Shown in pieces: positions 6,060 to 37,380 of a stretch of 64,000 nt of DNA. Position 1 is the stretch's first letter; the number at the start of each line of letters is the position of its first letter. The stretch covers positions 44,464 to 108,463 of the forward strand of contig CALKIZ010000045.1 in NCBI GenBank assembly GCA_937995735.1, in the 5' to 3' direction. The notes beneath the pieces were generated by a model. It had not been told where the DNA came from. It was given only the letters and a program-made list of their open reading frames with translations, and did no database searches. The stretch is from an uncultured Neomegalonema sp. GTDB lineage: Bacteria > Pseudomonadota > Alphaproteobacteria > Rhodobacterales > Rhodobacteraceae. The position numbers and the translations under genes are program-made.

Positions 6060-6078
6060 AACCGCTTTCTAAATCAAA

Positions 6079-6114
6079 ATCAGGTTTCACGCTCTCTTTG
6101 GCGCGAAACCTGAT
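6079..6114. terminator. Inverted repeat in a convergent intergenic gap, likely bidirectional terminator
   Basis: ATCAGGTTTC(ACGCTCTCTTTGGCGC)GAAACCTGAT, extended by an inner CGC/GCG pairing. It lies between the 3' ends of the SNF2 gene and the 6134 ORF. Confidence 0.6.
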
Positions 6115-6133
6115 ACCCGATAATTCGCGTTAT

Positions 6134-7090
6134 TCAGCTTTTGCCGACATTGGTGTTGACCATCACAGGCGGAATGAACTGACCGTCAAAGCCAACGGCT
6201 TGTCCAAACTGGTTGACGGCGCGTGTTGGTTGCGTGCGCACCAACCACCCGATAACCTGTTGATCCGTATCAACGATAGGCTGGAAAGGACGATCAGGGG
6301 AGACGGTAAAAGTTGATCCAAGCGGCGCAAAGAACGCCGATGGCAACGACTGGATATTGCTTCTCGCATTGACAACCGTGCCGGTCAGGCCCGTGGAGCA
6401 TGTCGAGAAACTCGACGATCCACCCTCACCAATCAGCATTTTTGTTTTGTTGTCTTGGACTTGAATATTCGCAACGACGGGATTTTTGGCGGTGCTTTTG
6501 CGTAAACAAGCCTGCACTGCGGGGTAAAAACGCGCCAGATTGAACGCCCAAGCATCAGTATCCTGCAATTCACTTCCAGCCGATGGGAGAGTCGAGTCTG
6601 GAACCGACCGTGTGACTGTTTTTGCAGGTTGCGGGATGGTATGGGGTTGTGGTGTAGCAGCGAAATTTGGTTGCTGATAAGTTTGCGCCGGTGTTTGCAC
6701 ATATGTCTGCGCTGGCGTTTGCACATATGTTTGAGCCGGGGCCGGAGCAGCGATTTGCGCCGTGGGCTTATAAGGCGACGCATAGCTTGGTGTCGTATTC
6801 GAGTAAATTGTCGCTGTTTGTGGAGCCGAAATCGCAGGCTGTGGCGCAGCGAGGACAGGCTGTTGCTGAGTACTATAGGTAATTGATGGCGTGGTGTAGA
6901 TCGTTTGGCCAGCCGCTTGCTGTGCCGTGACGGGCGCTTGATACGTGCTCGTTGCAGCGGGCGCAATTATCCTCGTTTGATACCCGTTCGGAATCTGTTG
7001 ATAATATATATTATTGCTCTGTGCGGCCACTACGCTGGTCATCGCAAGTGTAATTGCCGTGGCGAATGTACCACCGACTTTAATGGACAT
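6134..7090 (-). CDS. secreted Gln/Pro/Thr-repeat protein of unknown function
   Basis: Signal peptide MSIKVGGTFATAITLAMTSVVAAQS; AGGAG before the ATG at 7090; low-complexity Q/P/T/A region; cysteine-containing C-terminal half (AVQACLRKST, FSTCSTGLTG). Confidence 0.7.
   Translation of the reverse strand: MSIKVGGTFATAITLAMTSVVAAQSNNIYYQQIPNGYQTRIIAPAATSTYQAPVTAQQAAGQTIYTTPSITYSTQQQPVLAAPQPAISAPQTATIYSNTTPSYASPYKPTAQIAAPAPAQTYVQTPAQTYVQTPAQTYQQPNFAATPQPHTIPQPAKTVTRSVPDSTLPSAGSELQDTDAWAFNLARFYPAVQACLRKSTAKNPVVANIQVQDNKTKMLIGEGGSSSFSTCSTGLTGTVVNARSNIQSLPSAFFAPLGSTFTVSPDRPFQPIVDTDQQVIGWLVRTQPTRAVNQFGQAVGFDGQFIPPVMVNTNVGKS
6661..6732 (-). repeat. Tandem 24-bp (8-aa, TPAQTYVQ) in-frame repeat: two near-identical units plus one diverged unit
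   Basis: gcgccggtgtttgcacatatgtct / gcgctggcgtttgcacatatgttt are adjacent at 6685 and 6709. Protein reads QTPAQTYVQTPAQTYVQTPAQTYQQ. Confidence 0.85.
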
Positions 7091-7314
7091 GACGTTCTCC
7101 TGGCTCAATCAATACGTCACTTTTTGGACGCTGTCTGAATCGTAAACGATTTATTGCCAAGACTCAAATATTTGTCGGAGTCAATTCTGATTGATAGCAC
7201 TTAAGGCTTTTTTAACCCTGTATGGCAAGTAATCCAGCGGATTAACCGAGTATAAAGCGGGTCGCGTTTTTCGACGCAACCTGATGAATTTTTCAGTCGT
7301 ATCCACAATAAACT

Positions 7315-30417: not shown

Positions 30418-32628
30418 TCAAGCCGCAGCCTGTTTAGGCTGAAAACGTCCATAGAAAGTATCGCCCTTAGCGGCAATGTCTTTCAACAGATCAGGTGCTT
30501 TAAAGCGCTCACCATAATTCTGTTCCAAGGCATCACACATCGCAACAACCTCAGCAGGGCCAGTCAGATCGACCCACGAGAGAGGCCCGCCGGACCAAGG
30601 CGCAAAGCCCCAACCCAAAATTGCACCGACATCACCTTCACGAATATCAACCAGCACGTCCTCTTCTTTCGCGCGAATGGCTTCTAAGACCTGCGAAAGA
30701 ATAAGCCGGTTTTTCACTTCCTCAACATCGGGTTGGTCATCCGACACCGGGAAATGCGTTGCGAGATCAGGCCACAGTTTTTGCCGTTTGCCCTTCTCAT
30801 CGTAATCGTAAAAGCCCTTACCGTTCTTACGTCCAGCACGGCCCTGTCCTTCAAACATTTTGATGATCACATCATCAGCGCCCGTCCCTTCATACGCATC
30901 GCCCATCTGTACTTTGGTGGCGGACATAATCCGGTGACCAAGCTCTAACGATGTCTCATCGGTCAATTGCAAAGGAGCAACCGGCATTCCAATATGCTTT
31001 GCCGCATTTTCAATCAGTGCAGGCTTCACGCCTTCATTCACCATCGTCATCGCTTCATTCAGATACGGAATGATGCAACGGTTCGCATAGAAGAAGCGGG
31101 CATCATTGACGACAATCGGCGTCTTCTTGATTTGGCGAACGAAGTCTAACGCCTTGGCCACCGCAACATCCCCGGTCTTCTCGCCTTTGATGATTTCGAC
31201 TAGCATCATCTTCTCAACTGGCGAGAAGAAGTGGATGCCAATAAACTGCTCGGGACGCTTTGACGCTTTGGCCAGCCCCGTGATGGGCAAGGTCGATGTA
31301 TTGGTCGCAAATATCGCATCTTCGGGAATAACCGCCTCGGTCGCTTGCGTAACAGTCGCCTTGATTTTCGGATCTTCAAAGACCGCCTCAACAATCAAAT
31401 CACAGCCCGACATCTTGTCATAATCAGGAGTCGCCGTAACCCGCGCGAGGATTTCGTTTTTCTGATCCTCAGTGACTTTTTTACGTTTCACGCCTTTATC
31501 AAGAATGGCTTCAACCGAAGCCCGTCCGCGATCTGCACTTTCCTGATCCCGGTCAACCAACACGACATCAATACCAGCACGCGCTGAGACAAAAGCAATG
31601 CCGGCCCCCATCATCCCTGCGCCTATGATACCGACGGATTTAACTTTTTGATCCGGCACGTCAGGACGGCGCGCGCCTTTCTCAATCGCTTGCTTGTTCA
31701 CAAAGAGCGAGCGGATCATCGCCGAAGACCGTGGGTCCATCAGGACAGATGTGAACCACCGCGCCTCGATTCTGAGCGCATTGTCCATGTCAACCAACGA
31801 GCCTTCATAAACCGCTGAAAGCATCGCGTTAGTTTGCGGGTAGACACCGGCGGTCTGACCATGAGTCATGGCAACAGCGCCAAGATACGTTTGGAAACCT
31901 TTCGGTGTGTAGGGCGCACCGCCGGGAATTTTATAACCCCGATCATCCCAAGGCTTCACGGCGTCTTTCTCACTGGACCCGCGCACCCAAGCCACCGCAG
32001 AAGAAACCAAATCTTCCTGCGGAACAACTTCGTCGATCAACAAACCGGCTTTGGCCTTTTTCGGGTTTACCAGCTTACCCTTGAGCAAGTAATCTGCCGC
32101 GCCCATCACACCAAGCATCCGCACCAACCGAGTCGTCCCCCCTGCACCGGGGAAAAGACCAACCAGTGTTTCAGGAAGGCCGAGCTTGGCCTTGGGATTA
32201 TCCGCCGCAAACCGGCGATGACACCCAAGCAGCAATTCAAAAACACCGCCAAGCGCCGTACCGGGCGTAGCAGCAGCAAAGACTTTGCCGCCCTTTTTGG
32301 TTTTCTTATCCGCACCGCCCACTTCGATCTTGCGATAAAGAGAATGCAGCGCCCAAACAAAACCAAAAAGCGCCTCGCCGACATTGCCGCCCTCTTTCGC
32401 GGCCTGCGCCTTGATCTCAGCCAGCATCGTTAAGTCAACACCGCCGCCCATATCAGCTTTCGCCGAAGTGATCACCGCCCCCTTGAGCGCATCATCGGCA
32501 AGCACCGCATCAACATGACCATCCAGCTCGCGGATAACATCAGCCGTCATCACATTCATCGAACGATCAGCCATATCCCACGTAATGATCGCCACATCGC
32601 CGTCGGTCTCATATTTCCAGTTGGTCAT
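30418..32628 (-). CDS. FadB/FadJ-like trifunctional 3-hydroxyacyl-CoA dehydrogenase/enoyl-CoA hydratase
   Basis: MTNWKYETDGDVAIITWD with GGGAG RBS at 32628. GLPETLVGLFPGAGGTTRL (ECH), VGIIGAGMMGAGIAFVSARAGIDVVLVDRD (NAD binding), FIGIHFFSPVEKMMLVEII. Confidence 0.95.
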   Translation of the reverse strand: MTNWKYETDGDVAIITWDMADRSMNVMTADVIRELDGHVDAVLADDALKGAVITSAKADMGGGVDLTMLAEIKAQAAKEGGNVGEALFGFVWALHSLYRKIEVGGADKKTKKGGKVFAAATPGTALGGVFELLLGCHRRFAADNPKAKLGLPETLVGLFPGAGGTTRLVRMLGVMGAADYLLKGKLVNPKKAKAGLLIDEVVPQEDLVSSAVAWVRGSSEKDAVKPWDDRGYKIPGGAPYTPKGFQTYLGAVAMTHGQTAGVYPQTNAMLSAVYEGSLVDMDNALRIEARWFTSVLMDPRSSAMIRSLFVNKQAIEKGARRPDVPDQKVKSVGIIGAGMMGAGIAFVSARAGIDVVLVDRDQESADRGRASVEAILDKGVKRKKVTEDQKNEILARVTATPDYDKMSGCDLIVEAVFEDPKIKATVTQATEAVIPEDAIFATNTSTLPITGLAKASKRPEQFIGIHFFSPVEKMMLVEIIKGEKTGDVAVAKALDFVRQIKKTPIVVNDARFFYANRCIIPYLNEAMTMVNEGVKPALIENAAKHIGMPVAPLQLTDETSLELGHRIMSATKVQMGDAYEGTGADDVIIKMFEGQGRAGRKNGKGFYDYDEKGKRQKLWPDLATHFPVSDDQPDVEEVKNRLILSQVLEAIRAKEEDVLVDIREGDVGAILGWGFAPWSGGPLSWVDLTGPAEVVAMCDALEQNYGERFKAPDLLKDIAAKGDTFYGRFQPKQAAA

Positions 32629-32651
32629 TTTAATTCTCCCTGTGGAGTGTT

Positions 32652-33047
32652 CTATTTTCTCGGCGCAGAAACACCGCGTAGCCACTCGGCAAATTCGGTT
32701 TCAGTCAGTTCGCCAGAGGCGAGGGTAAGAATAGTGTCGATGACATCTTTTTGGGATGTTTCGAGATCAAAGCCACACGAATCGAGAAAGAAAGCAGCAG
32801 CAACAAACGCCGTTCTCTTATTCCCATCACTAAATGGGTGATTCCGGACGATCCCAAAAGCGTAGCTGGAAGCCAGAATGATTGGGTCGTCCACACCCTC
32901 ATACCCATTCAAATTAACCGGCCTTGCAAGTGCAGAAGACAGTACGTTGGTATCTCTTATCCCAGGCAATCCTCCGTACCGCTCGATTTGTTTGCGATGA
33001 ATTTTTAGAGCATCTTCCTCCGAAACCCACTGCCACTCCTCGATCAT
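32652..33047 (-). CDS. Doc-type (Fic fold) death-on-curing toxin
   Basis: RYGGLPGIRDTNVLSSALARP...ASSYAFGIVRNHPFSDGNKRTAFVAAAFFLDSCG carries the Doc-type HxFxDGNKR motif. ATGA overlap with the upstream ORF. Confidence 0.92.
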   Translation of the reverse strand: MIEEWQWVSEEDALKIHRKQIERYGGLPGIRDTNVLSSALARPVNLNGYEGVDDPIILASSYAFGIVRNHPFSDGNKRTAFVAAAFFLDSCGFDLETSQKDVIDTILTLASGELTETEFAEWLRGVSAPRK

Positions 33048-33412
33048 TTCGCAAGTTCTCGAAGCGCCTCATCGTATCGATCCATTATCGCATCGACACG
33101 ATTCATGCGCTCATCAGAACCTTGCGCATTACTTCGAATTTCATCAATCGCCTGCATCAACGAATGTGGATCAAACTTGGACTTCGAATGTAAAGCGCTC
33201 GAAAATCGAAATGCCTGATCAGAGTAGACCATGAGACGCAGAATATCATCGTGCATTCGTGTTTTTGCCACTTGTTCTAGAAGTCGATCACGAACTACAT
33301 CCACGTCTTCGCGTTGCACCTGACCACGTGCAATTCGGCTGGAGAGCTTTGAGTGAAGCTCGATAATCTCATCTCGTGCAGATAATCGGAGTTGTTCGAC
33401 CGTTATGCTCAT
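33044..33412 (-). CDS. putative antitoxin partner of the Doc-type toxin, family unrecognised
   Basis: 122-aa, mostly helical charged protein. Its stop overlaps the doc start (ATGA). No obvious Phd/AbrB/HTH signature by eye. Confidence 0.55.
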   Translation of the reverse strand: MSITVEQLRLSARDEIIELHSKLSSRIARGQVQREDVDVVRDRLLEQVAKTRMHDDILRLMVYSDQAFRFSSALHSKSKFDPHSLMQAIDEIRSNAQGSDERMNRVDAIMDRYDEALRELAK

Positions 33413-33438
33413 AACAAAATTCCTCCAATGTTAGTCAA

Positions 33439-34650
33439 TCAAACCCGCTCAATAACAGTGGCTGCGCCCATGCCTGATGCGACGCAGAGTGTGCACAAAG
33501 CCGTGCCGCCCCCGGTACGTTCTAACTCATCCAAAGCCGTCCCAATAATCATCGCGCCAGTTGCGCCGAGTGGGTGACCCATCGCGATTGCACCGCCATT
33601 CGGGTTCAGCTTGGCATGATCCGCATTAAACGCTTGCAAGAAGCGCAAAACGACTGCGGAAAAGGCTTCATTCACTTCGTACAGATCAAAGTCACTGATC
33701 GACATGCCGGTCTCTTTCAAGACCTTCTCCGTTACCGGAACCGGGCCTGTCAGCATGATCGTCGGATCGGTTCCGATCTTCGCTGTGTGTTTAATACGCG
33801 CACGAGGTTTCAGGCCAAGTTTTTCGCCAATCTCTTTCGAACCAATCAGCAAGCCCGCAGCGCCATCGACAATCCCCGATGAATTACCCGCGTGATGAAC
33901 GTGATTGACGGATTCAAGCTCAGGATATTTTAGCAGAGCCACGGCATCAAAGCCCGGCATCGACTCGCCCATATCTTTGAACGACGCTTTCAAGCCGCCA
34001 AGCGATTGCATGTCCGTGCCGGGGCGTATGTGCTCATCGTGATCAAGGATTGTCACATCGTTCATGTCTTTGACCGCAACAATCGAATTAGCAAAACGTT
34101 TGTCTTCCCAAGCCGCCGCTGCACGTTTCTGGCTCTCAACCGCGAAAGCATCACAATCATCGCGAGAGAAGCCATATTTCGTTGCTATAATATCAGCAGA
34201 AATTCCTTGCGGCACGAAATACGACTTCATCGCAGGCGTTGGGTCAACCGCGATAGCAAAGCCATCGCTGCCCATCGGGACGCGGCTCATCATCTCAACG
34301 CCGCCAGCAACATAAAGATTGCCAGCCCCGCCTTTTACCTGGTTCGCAGCGAGGTTGACCGCTTCCATACCGGATGCACAGAACCGGTTGATATGCAGGC
34401 CGGGGACGCTTTCGTCATAATCAGCTTGCAGCACAGCAGTCCGAGCAACTTCTCCGCCCTGCTCTCCGACCGGTGTCACACAGCCCAAAATCACATCTTC
34501 AATCTCTGACGTGTCGAGGTCATTGCGATCCCGCAGTGCTTCGAGAATGGTCGACGCGCATCTCAGCGATGTTACCTCGTGAAGCGAGCCATCTTTCTTG
34601 CCCTTACCTCTGGGGGTTCGGACGGAGTCGTAAATGTAGGCTTCGGTCAT
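33439..34650 (-). CDS. acetyl-CoA C-acyltransferase (thiolase), FadA-like
   Basis: AYIYDSVRTPRGKGKKDGSLHEVTSL, INRFCASGMEAVNLAANQVKGG, NVNGGAIA-type NPNGGAIAMGHPLGATGAMI, LCTLCVASGMGAATVIERV. Confidence 0.96.
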   Translation of the reverse strand: MTEAYIYDSVRTPRGKGKKDGSLHEVTSLRCASTILEALRDRNDLDTSEIEDVILGCVTPVGEQGGEVARTAVLQADYDESVPGLHINRFCASGMEAVNLAANQVKGGAGNLYVAGGVEMMSRVPMGSDGFAIAVDPTPAMKSYFVPQGISADIIATKYGFSRDDCDAFAVESQKRAAAAWEDKRFANSIVAVKDMNDVTILDHDEHIRPGTDMQSLGGLKASFKDMGESMPGFDAVALLKYPELESVNHVHHAGNSSGIVDGAAGLLIGSKEIGEKLGLKPRARIKHTAKIGTDPTIMLTGPVPVTEKVLKETGMSISDFDLYEVNEAFSAVVLRFLQAFNADHAKLNPNGGAIAMGHPLGATGAMIIGTALDELERTGGGTALCTLCVASGMGAATVIERV

Positions 34651-34717
34651 CGAATATCCTCCACCGCCATTGCGGTCTGCAAATGCTGAGAAATGAGAGT
34701 TATTACCTTAAAATCTT

Positions 34718-35368
34718 TCACGCCGATGCTCCCGGCATAGGATGCCCCGGCATCAGATCGTATGGATGTTTCCAACCCGGCAAGGCTTGCATACGGGTTT
34801 GCCATGCTTCGATATGCGTAAATCGTTCTGCGTCAGTCCATTGGAATTCGTCGCGCGGATAAAACAGATAGCCAGCGCAAGCGACATCAGCGGTCGTTGG
34901 GCGATCCACAGCAATCCATTCGCGATTGACGAGGTGTTGATCCAGCACCTTCATCGCGCCAAGCGCACGTCCACGCATAAACTTGTTGACGTCTTCACTG
35001 CGGACGGCTTCAGGCGCCCAATTCAACATAAAGCGATAGATACCCTGAAAACTGTTCAGCTTGTGGTTCTCCCAAAGAGTCCAGCGTAGAATCTCAAGAC
35101 GTTCATCTTCGGTATCCGCACCGAATTTTCCAAATTGCTTTGAAAGATAATCAAGCATCACACCTGATTGAATAAACTTCTTATCGCCATGAAACAGGAC
35201 CGGCGCTTCCCCCATCGGATTCATGGCTTGGTATTCCGGGCTGCGTGCTTCGCCGTTAAAAAAGTCAACGAAAACCGGTTCCCAATCCGCTTCGCAAAGC
35301 GACAACATCAAGGCTGCTTTGTAGGAATGCCCGGACTGCGCAAAGCAGTGAAGTTTGAAATCAGTCAA
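34718..35368 (-). CDS. glutathione S-transferase family protein
   Basis: MTDFKLHCFAQSGHSYKAALMLSLCEADWEPVFVDFFNGEARSPEYQAMNPMGEAPVLFHGDKKFIQSGVMLDYLSKQFG (thioredoxin-like GST N-domain). Confidence 0.88.
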   Translation of the reverse strand: MTDFKLHCFAQSGHSYKAALMLSLCEADWEPVFVDFFNGEARSPEYQAMNPMGEAPVLFHGDKKFIQSGVMLDYLSKQFGKFGADTEDERLEILRWTLWENHKLNSFQGIYRFMLNWAPEAVRSEDVNKFMRGRALGAMKVLDQHLVNREWIAVDRPTTADVACAGYLFYPRDEFQWTDAERFTHIEAWQTRMQALPGWKHPYDLMPGHPMPGASA

Positions 35369-35592
35369 GATGTTCCTCCAAAGCCTTGAGTGATGCGTTT
35401 GCGTAAAATGCTGCGCTCTCTCAAGTGTTATACATCATTATCTGACGCAAGTTGACATGATCACACAAGGCCAGCGCTCATCATTTTTAGCGGTCATATC
35501 CATTTTAACGATAAAATAGCTGCACACCGCTTGCAAACTTCAGGCGCATAATAAGTGCAGGTGCGCCGTCAAAAAACAACGCACCCACAAGA

Positions 35593-37380
35593 TTAAAATG
35601 CTTCGGCATCCAGCGCCATCACCGTATCAGCACCTGATTTGATGCGGGCAAGATGTGCCGTGGTCGCGGGCATCACACGCTGCATATAATATCGTGCCGT
35701 TACAATCTTAGCCTCGTAGAACGCCGGATTGTCCGACCCTGCGGCCAGCGCCTCTTGCGCTGTCTTCGCCATCTTCGCCCACATAAAGCCAATCGCGACA
35801 TGGCCAAAGAGGTGCATAAAGTCAGTCGATCCGGCGGCGGCCTGATTTGGGTCTTTCATGCCATGCTGCATGAACCACATAACCGCCTCTTGAAGTTCTT
35901 TAGAGGCATTCTTAACCGGCTCAATGAATTCCGCCATCTCGTCACTGGAGTTCTCTTTTGAGAAATCTTTGACGATACCAAAGAATGTCTGCATTCCCGC
36001 ACCGCCCTTTTGAGGCAGTTTACGGCCAATCAAATCAAGGGCCTGAACACCGTTTGCCCCCTCATAAATCATCGCGATACGGGCATCGCGGACGAACTGG
36101 CTTTGCGACCAATCCTCGGTATACCCATGGCCTCCGAAGATTTGCTGCATCTGGACCGCTGTATCAAAGCCCTTATCCGTGAGGAAGCCTTTCACCACCG
36201 GGGTCAACAGCGCAATCAACAGACCGGCTTGATCCCGCTTTTTCTCATCTTCGTGGTGCAGTTCTTCGTCGATCAGCGTCGACGCCCAATAATAAAATGC
36301 ACGGCCCCCTTCGACAAAGCCCTTTGCATCCATGAGCATCCGGCGAACATCGGGATGGACCAACAAAGGGTCTGCTTTTTGATCAGGGAATTTATCGCCA
36401 TCAAGCGCACGACCTTGCAGGCGGTCTTTCGCATACGCTGCTGCGTTTTGATACGCGATGGAGGCTTGTGATAGCCCCTGCATCCCAACAAGAAGGCGCG
36501 CTTCATTCATCATCAGGAACATCGCGCGCAACCCTTTATGCTCGTCGCCAATGAGCCATCCGGTTGCTTCATCATAGTTCATCACACAGGTCGAATTCCC
36601 GTGAATGCCCATCTTCTCTTCAATCTTGCCACAAGACAAAGTGTTTCGTTCTCCGAGGCTTCCGTCTTCTTTCGGCAAAAACTTAGGAACGACAAAGAGC
36701 GATATTCCCTTCACGCCTTCCGGCCCGCCGGGGATTTTAGCGAGCACCAAGTGAACGATATTCTCGCTCATATCGTGCTCGCCCGAAGAGATGAAAATTT
36801 TCTGCCCGGAAACCTTATAGCTGCCATCGCCATTCGGTTCGGCTTTCGAGCGAAGCAAACCTAAATCGGTTCCGCAATGCGGCTCCGTCAAGTTCATCGT
36901 GCCGGTCCATGAACCGGAGATCATTTTCGGCAGATAAGTGTTTTTCTGCTCTTCAGAACCAAAACCCTCAATGGCTTTAATCGCACCATGGGTTAGGCCG
37001 GAATACATCGAAAACGCCATCGCGGCTGACGAAGAGATCTCGCCTGTGACAGCATGAACAATGTAGGGCATACCTTGCCCGCCATATTCGGGATTACAAT
37101 CAATCCCCGGCCAGCCACCTTCGCATTGTGCGGCATAGGCTTCTTTGAAACCATCAGGCGTGCGGACAACGCCATTTTCGAGAACACACCCTTGCTTATC
37201 GCCTACTTCATTGATCGGCAGCAGAACTTCCGTGGCAATCTTGCCCGCTTCTTCAAAAATCGCACCGGTCATGTCATCGGTGAGGTCTGAATAACCTTCG
37301 ATTGACGACTGCTCATGAATGCGCAGCACATCATGCAAAATGAATTTTATGTCTTCGGTCGGAGCCTGATAAATCGCCAT
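35593..37380 (-). CDS. acyl-CoA dehydrogenase (long form with C-terminal extension)
   Basis: [19 protein letters not shown] start. [108 protein letters not shown]. Confidence 0.95.

Follow-up and report, generated by a model that had tools for sequence, protein, structure and literature searches.

A Doc-type toxin gene lying between two genes of fatty-acid β-oxidation raises the question of whether the toxin serves fatty-acid metabolism or is only housed in its operon. The sequence-only reading of the window, a 64,000-nt stretch of DNA from an uncultured Neomegalonema sp., had proposed that the module is transcribed with the fad genes and possibly tuned to fatty-acid catabolism. The gene order, strand, 26-nt gap, 4-nt overlap and 23-nt gap that it gave are exact in every coordinate. 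The thiolase gene, ORF122, doc and the FadJ/FadB-like gene follow one another co-directionally on the minus strand (Table 1), and the overlap between ORF122 and doc is ATGA. Identification of the module as a putative Doc-type toxin–antitoxin (TA) pair in a β-oxidation gene cluster is well supported by these gene positions and by profile matches.

Table 1. Features of the module and of the adjoining host genes in the window
Feature	Coordinates	Strand	Evidence or remark
Thiolase, host gene preceding the module in the operon	33439..34650	-	PRK08242 type acetyl-CoA C-acetyltransferase; NF006090, 682 bits, over cut-off
Thiolase-ORF122 spacer, 26 nt	33413..33438	-	Ribosome-binding site GGAGGA; promoter-like site not found
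ORF122, proposed antitoxin, 122 aa	33044..33412	-	Tail profile; TIGR02609 weak
Antitoxin tail SDERMNRVDAIMDRYDEALRELAK and stop	33044..33118	-	Tails of this type also lie at this junction in G010, G006 and G009
doc, 131-aa Doc-type Fic toxin	32652..33047	-	Pfam Fic PF02661, E 6.3e-20; NCBIfam DOC_P1 TIGR01550, 69.0 bits, passes curated cut-off of 38.65; P1 Doc in PDB (3k33), E 2e-14; PHROG 577 Doc-like toxin, E 9.8e-33
doc-fadB spacer, 23 nt	32629..32651	-	Ribosome-binding site AGGGAGA
FadJ/FadB-like enoyl-CoA hydratase/3-hydroxyacyl-CoA dehydrogenase, host gene downstream of the module	30418..32628	-	Profile matches

The FadJ/FadB-like gene has the full domain set, yet it scores below the equivalog cut-offs, so the names FadA and FadB are valid at the family level only. 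A longer mechanical fadB frame (GTG 32685) is unneeded because alignments with the relatives place residue 1 at ATG 32628. An assembly artefact was ruled out, as Doc copies or remnants occupy the same junction in other species.

Doc carries the motif HPFSDGNKR from residue 70, and H70, D74, K77 and R78 are all intact. The motif follows the form H-x-F-x-D/N-x-N-K-R, in which Lys replaces Gly. This Lys marks the Doc form of the Fic motif; Fic proteins that transfer AMP have Gly there. The Doc-variant motif claimed in the sequence-only reading is thus present, and the Doc profiles are over cut-off. PADLOC matched Doc to unnamed candidate models, with the alignment mainly around the Fic motif. A search of this genome found no second Doc.

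ORF122 is best read, from its sequence, as the Doc antitoxin. The chance of a 122-codon open frame at this base composition is about 0.0008. Of 80 Doc relatives drawn from 85,462 genomes, 77 are preceded by a partner whose C-terminus is the same LAK/LAE/LAQ tail; these partners are mostly of AbrB type, and a few have other N-domains. A tail profile was built from the last 28 residues of the 77 partners. The ORF122 tail (residues ~98–122, the last ~24) scored 21.2 bits against it, compared with 12.4 bits for the best of 2000 shuffles, and among the window reading frames of at least 60 aa the profile matched ORF122 alone. TIGR02609 (doc_partner antidote) gave 18.1 bits against a cut-off of 55.9 (E 0.0027), with only the last 30 residues of ORF122 aligned, and a full-length AbrB-type antitoxin profile recovered just the same tail. 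No Pfam domain was detected in ORF122, and neither Pfam nor NCBIfam found a PhdYeFM domain in it. The AbrB/MazE N-domain with its GNS motif is absent from ORF122, and no AbrB remnant appeared in any of the six frames. Since the tail scores far above the shuffles and no AbrB remnant is present, ORF122 appears to be an antitoxin by its tail, with ~95 N-terminal residues that lack a known domain.

Residues 1 to ~95 had no convincing relatives in ~700 genomes (overlapping sets of 101 related, 387 class and 298 family genomes) and plasmids. Searches with ORF122 returned its own tail or weak matches (23–36% identity, E 0.003–0.05), mostly within longer reading frames. The AF2 model from the single sequence has six helices at a low-confidence pLDDT of 67, and no PDB entry matched it below E 0.6; for both reasons the fold was left uninterpreted. 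This part of the protein is probably an all-helical domain without a recognised family. The unusual antitoxin, overlooked in the sequence-only reading, is the more novel part of the locus.

Co-transcription of ORF122 and doc with the fad genes is plausible. The spacing of the genes implies it, and neither a promoter nor a terminator that would isolate the pair was recognised. The consensus scan, which is weak evidence in alphaproteobacteria, found no minus-strand promoter-like site in 32500–35700. No isolating terminator stood out in the scan, and the terminator-like matches inside doc are at chance level. The sole strong hairpin (15 pairs, minus strand 35556–35589) lies just past the stop of the acyl-CoA dehydrogenase (ACAD) gene and before the GST gene, and it possibly separates a MerR-ACAD part from a GST-thiolase-TA-fadB part. 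A single message carrying GST, thiolase, ORF122, doc and fadB would fit the promoter and hairpin scan. The shared transcription proposed in the sequence-only reading therefore stands as an implication of the spacing; the tuning is unsupported. Direct repeats of a mobile element flanking the module were looked for, and none were found.

The genus, a member of the Rhodobacteraceae, comprises 14 genomes in our collection, and we examined the thiolase-fadB junction in the window (G000) and 11 relatives. It was left uncounted in G011, where both contigs stop before the junction, and in G007, which lacks the thiolase. ORF122 and Doc are intact in the window. Among the 11 relatives, one junction has an intact AbrB-type antitoxin/Doc pair, three have a broken Doc, three an orphan antitoxin, one a Doc broken by the contig, and three are empty. 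The intact pair, in G002, has a 161-aa ORF ahead of it. Doc has lost its middle, including the Fic motif, in G010, where the AbrB-type antitoxin has two successive tails; in G004 only its C-terminal half remains, directly behind the thiolase stop; and in G003 a cupin-like gene stands with a short C-terminal Doc scar. G006 and G009 have ORFs of ~50 aa that retain the antitoxin tail only, and in G008 an AbrB-type antitoxin stands orphaned beside two further ORFs, one of 135 aa and one of 110 aa, the latter resembling a pentapeptide-repeat protein by eye. In G013, the Doc end lies at a contig break and only the two ends of the junction were read. The sequence-only reading had proposed to look for an empty site in close relatives, and G012, G005 and G001 have one of 23 nt. 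G012 is the nearest relative, with a thiolase 99% identical. The tail pattern RM....IMD.YD.AL.ELAK is common to ORF122 and to the antitoxins and orphan tails at this junction, and the DNA from the doc stop to the fadB start is common to several members of the genus. These junctions give a clear picture of a single module decaying at a single site; this series and an antitoxin whose N-terminal domain appears to have been replaced are the new elements here.

The two-tailed antitoxin of G010 (L065, interval 6163–6721) is of AbrB type and carries two tails of the Doc-binding type, EIAGRIIEENREVLQKLA and then MDMVDKIMDEYDQALAELAK; it stands upstream of the Doc without an active-site motif. The orphan tail ORFs of G006 (L064, ~2746–2898) and G009 (L066, ~6092–6252) have the tail IMDxYDxALKELAKK. 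No Doc was detected in the G006 and G009 genomes, and the tail-only ORFs are possibly remnants or anti-addiction peptides.

Most partners at 40 stand-alone Doc loci of Rhodobacteraceae resemble Phd or AbrB, and nearly all of the AbrB partners have a G-N/A-S motif (one has GET). None of the four antitoxins of AbrB type encoded at the fad junction has this motif. AbrB domains in general also occur without GNS, so equating the loss of GNS with a loss of DNA binding was set aside. The missing motif may reflect relaxed DNA binding or, equally, a different AbrB subfamily.

The Doc tree groups the proteins of G000, G010, G004 and G013 with a bootstrap support of 99 and separates them from every other sampled Doc; this clade is found at the thiolase-fadB site only. 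Between G000 and G010 or G004, the synonymous divergence of doc (pS 0.94 and 0.83) is saturated, as is that of the thiolase gene (pS 0.81 and 0.78). Doc evolves faster than its neighbours (pN 0.25 and 0.24, compared with 0.07–0.08 for the thiolase), but its pN is low while synonymous sites are as saturated as in the thiolase, which indicates purifying selection on Doc for most of the divergence. As Doc was long constrained, it was broken comparatively late in G010 and G004. On the fad-gene tree, three losses explain the presence and absence, counted by hand, just as well as a single loss plus two re-gains. The Docs of G002 and G021, a genome of another genus, fall elsewhere in the Doc tree. 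The G002 Doc is 44% identical, and the G002 TA genes have a GC3 of 0.44–0.47 compared with 0.91–0.95 in their flanks. Judged by these values, they were probably transferred recently, and the site has likely re-acquired a module at least once. In G002 (L061, 7202–8354), the last doc bases and the doc-fadB spacer agree with those of the genus despite the low GC3.

The junction was also compared in 67 genomes of other genera of the family. The thiolase and fadB are separated by at least 400 nt in 40 of them and by at most 140 nt in 26. Of the 40 long junctions, 32 contain at least one of two protein types, cupin and NTF2-like, as judged by similarity to two seeds named from their motifs. We know of no role of these junction proteins in β-oxidation. 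In 60 other-genus genomes (L169–L228), the junction repeatedly holds a ~155-aa cupin-like and/or a ~150-aa NTF2-like (SnoaL-type) protein, and some of these proteins are about double in length, as if fused in tandem. Doc occurs in only 1 of the 67 junctions, that of G021. The junction there (L069, ~6063–7250) carries a NADAR-domain protein (E 3e-49) together with an AbrB-type antitoxin and Doc, which makes two adjacent candidate elements of TA or defence, unrelated to each other. Doc adjoins this thiolase in only one other genus among ~280 sampled, and none of the 80 Doc loci from the 85,462 genomes has these fad genes within 4 kb. Because the guest genes are many and unrelated and Doc is rare among them, the junction is a permissive insertion place in the operon, with Doc as one guest among several.

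We consider it likely that the locus is a type II Doc-family TA module, long resident at one β-oxidation junction, which persists as a self-maintaining passenger with modular turnover of its antitoxin. The message would most likely read through from the thiolase into fadB; on it, ORF122 would be made first and Doc next by translational coupling. The C-terminal helix of ORF122 would plug Doc. P1 Doc as a model suggests that, once the antitoxin dropped, Doc would block translation by modifying EF-Tu. Loss would thus be penalised, and the module would retain itself and the neighbouring DNA. When the toxin or the body of the antitoxin is damaged, the module could be shed, and what remains would be an orphan antitoxin, a scar or a clean junction. 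The antitoxins of the genus range from AbrB type to tail-only peptides and an unrelated helical domain. In the window strain, the AbrB-type DNA-binding part would have been replaced by this helical domain while the tail was kept, and classical autoregulation would then probably be gone or rewired.

The passenger reading has to be weighed against a growth switch tuned to fatty acids, in which the host would have recruited the module so that induction or repression of the fad genes sets the balance of antitoxin and toxin and arrests growth when supply changes. The operon position and the coupling spacing agree with such a switch, as do the unrecognised separate promoter, the AbrB autoregulatory domain missing in the window strain and the purifying selection on Doc. 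We nevertheless regard it as very unlikely. The junction is empty in the nearest relative and two others, Doc is broken or absent in most of the genus, and it adjoins the thiolase in one other genus only. The fad genes are intact in relatives where Doc is absent, truncated or without the Fic motif. A mutated toxin in relatives is what the sequence-only reading had named as evidence against itself. The empty and broken junctions of close relatives weaken the link to fatty-acid physiology, and the acceptance of unrelated genes at the site also speaks against tuning. In a related version, embedding among the fad genes would have let the module drop its own autoregulatory antitoxin domain, the balance now being set by the host fatty-acid regulator and by whatever the ORF122 domain senses; we hold this version to be quite doubtful. 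If true, the growth switch would be wired to metabolism and its antitoxin would represent a new class.

A different history would make the junction a permissive spot where each species recently caught its own Doc module, with nothing ancestral. The many unrelated genes at the junction, a module GC3 below that of the flanks in G002, G010, G008 and G000, and the distinct G021 Doc, which does not group with the genus, are in line with this. It is unlikely, however, given the well-supported clade of four Docs restricted to this site, the thiolase-like synonymous saturation of doc between G000 and G010 or G004, and the shared DNA between the doc stop and the fadB start. Finally, ORF122 might be an unrelated small protein, with Doc solitary or otherwise neutralised. 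Its first 95 residues match nothing known and TIGR02609 stays below cut-off, but the tail match is rightly placed and comes with translational coupling, and the same tail recurs at this junction, both in antitoxins and in the tail-only ORFs. We find this explanation barely credible.

For the long-resident passenger, the within-genus series (intact, toxin-broken, antitoxin-only, scar and empty) makes the upkeep and loss of chromosomal TA modules directly testable. ORF122 would add a Doc antitoxin that is conserved in its neutralising tail only. This suggests that the tail alone may suffice where the host operon supplies transcription.

In the open-access literature searched, TA pairs within fatty-acid operons are not described, although absence there is no proof. 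The closest known system is the composite mazE-doc module TasAB, which showed that Doc antitoxins are modular with a conserved C-terminal end (Fico & Mahillon 2006, PMC1626090). The same study paired Doc toxins with at least 10 groups of upstream proteins and with orphan ones (PMC1626090). The window module resembles TasAB in its Doc-type toxin, small upstream antitoxin, conserved C-terminal end and translational coupling, and its antitoxin gene lies directly upstream of doc as in AbrB-Doc modules, here with the 4-nt overlap. Unlike TasAB, ORF122 lacks the AbrB/MazE N-domain and GNS motif, and the module sits within a metabolic operon whereas the TasAB locus is free-standing. Since the TasAB work had already shown modular Doc antitoxins with a conserved C-terminal end, ORF122 is not a new kind. 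Compared with Phd-Doc of phage P1, the toxin is homologous over its full length (32% identity, NKR motif type), whereas ORF122 is not Phd-like by Pfam or NCBIfam. The cupin-like and NTF2-like genes of other Rhodobacteraceae genera share the insertion point and direction but are not TA genes. The HTH-like Doc antitoxin of Parahaliea mediterranea (L092) likewise joins a different N-terminal domain to the same Doc tail; its N-domain is XRE-type helix-turn-helix-like by eye, whereas that of ORF122 belongs to no recognised family.
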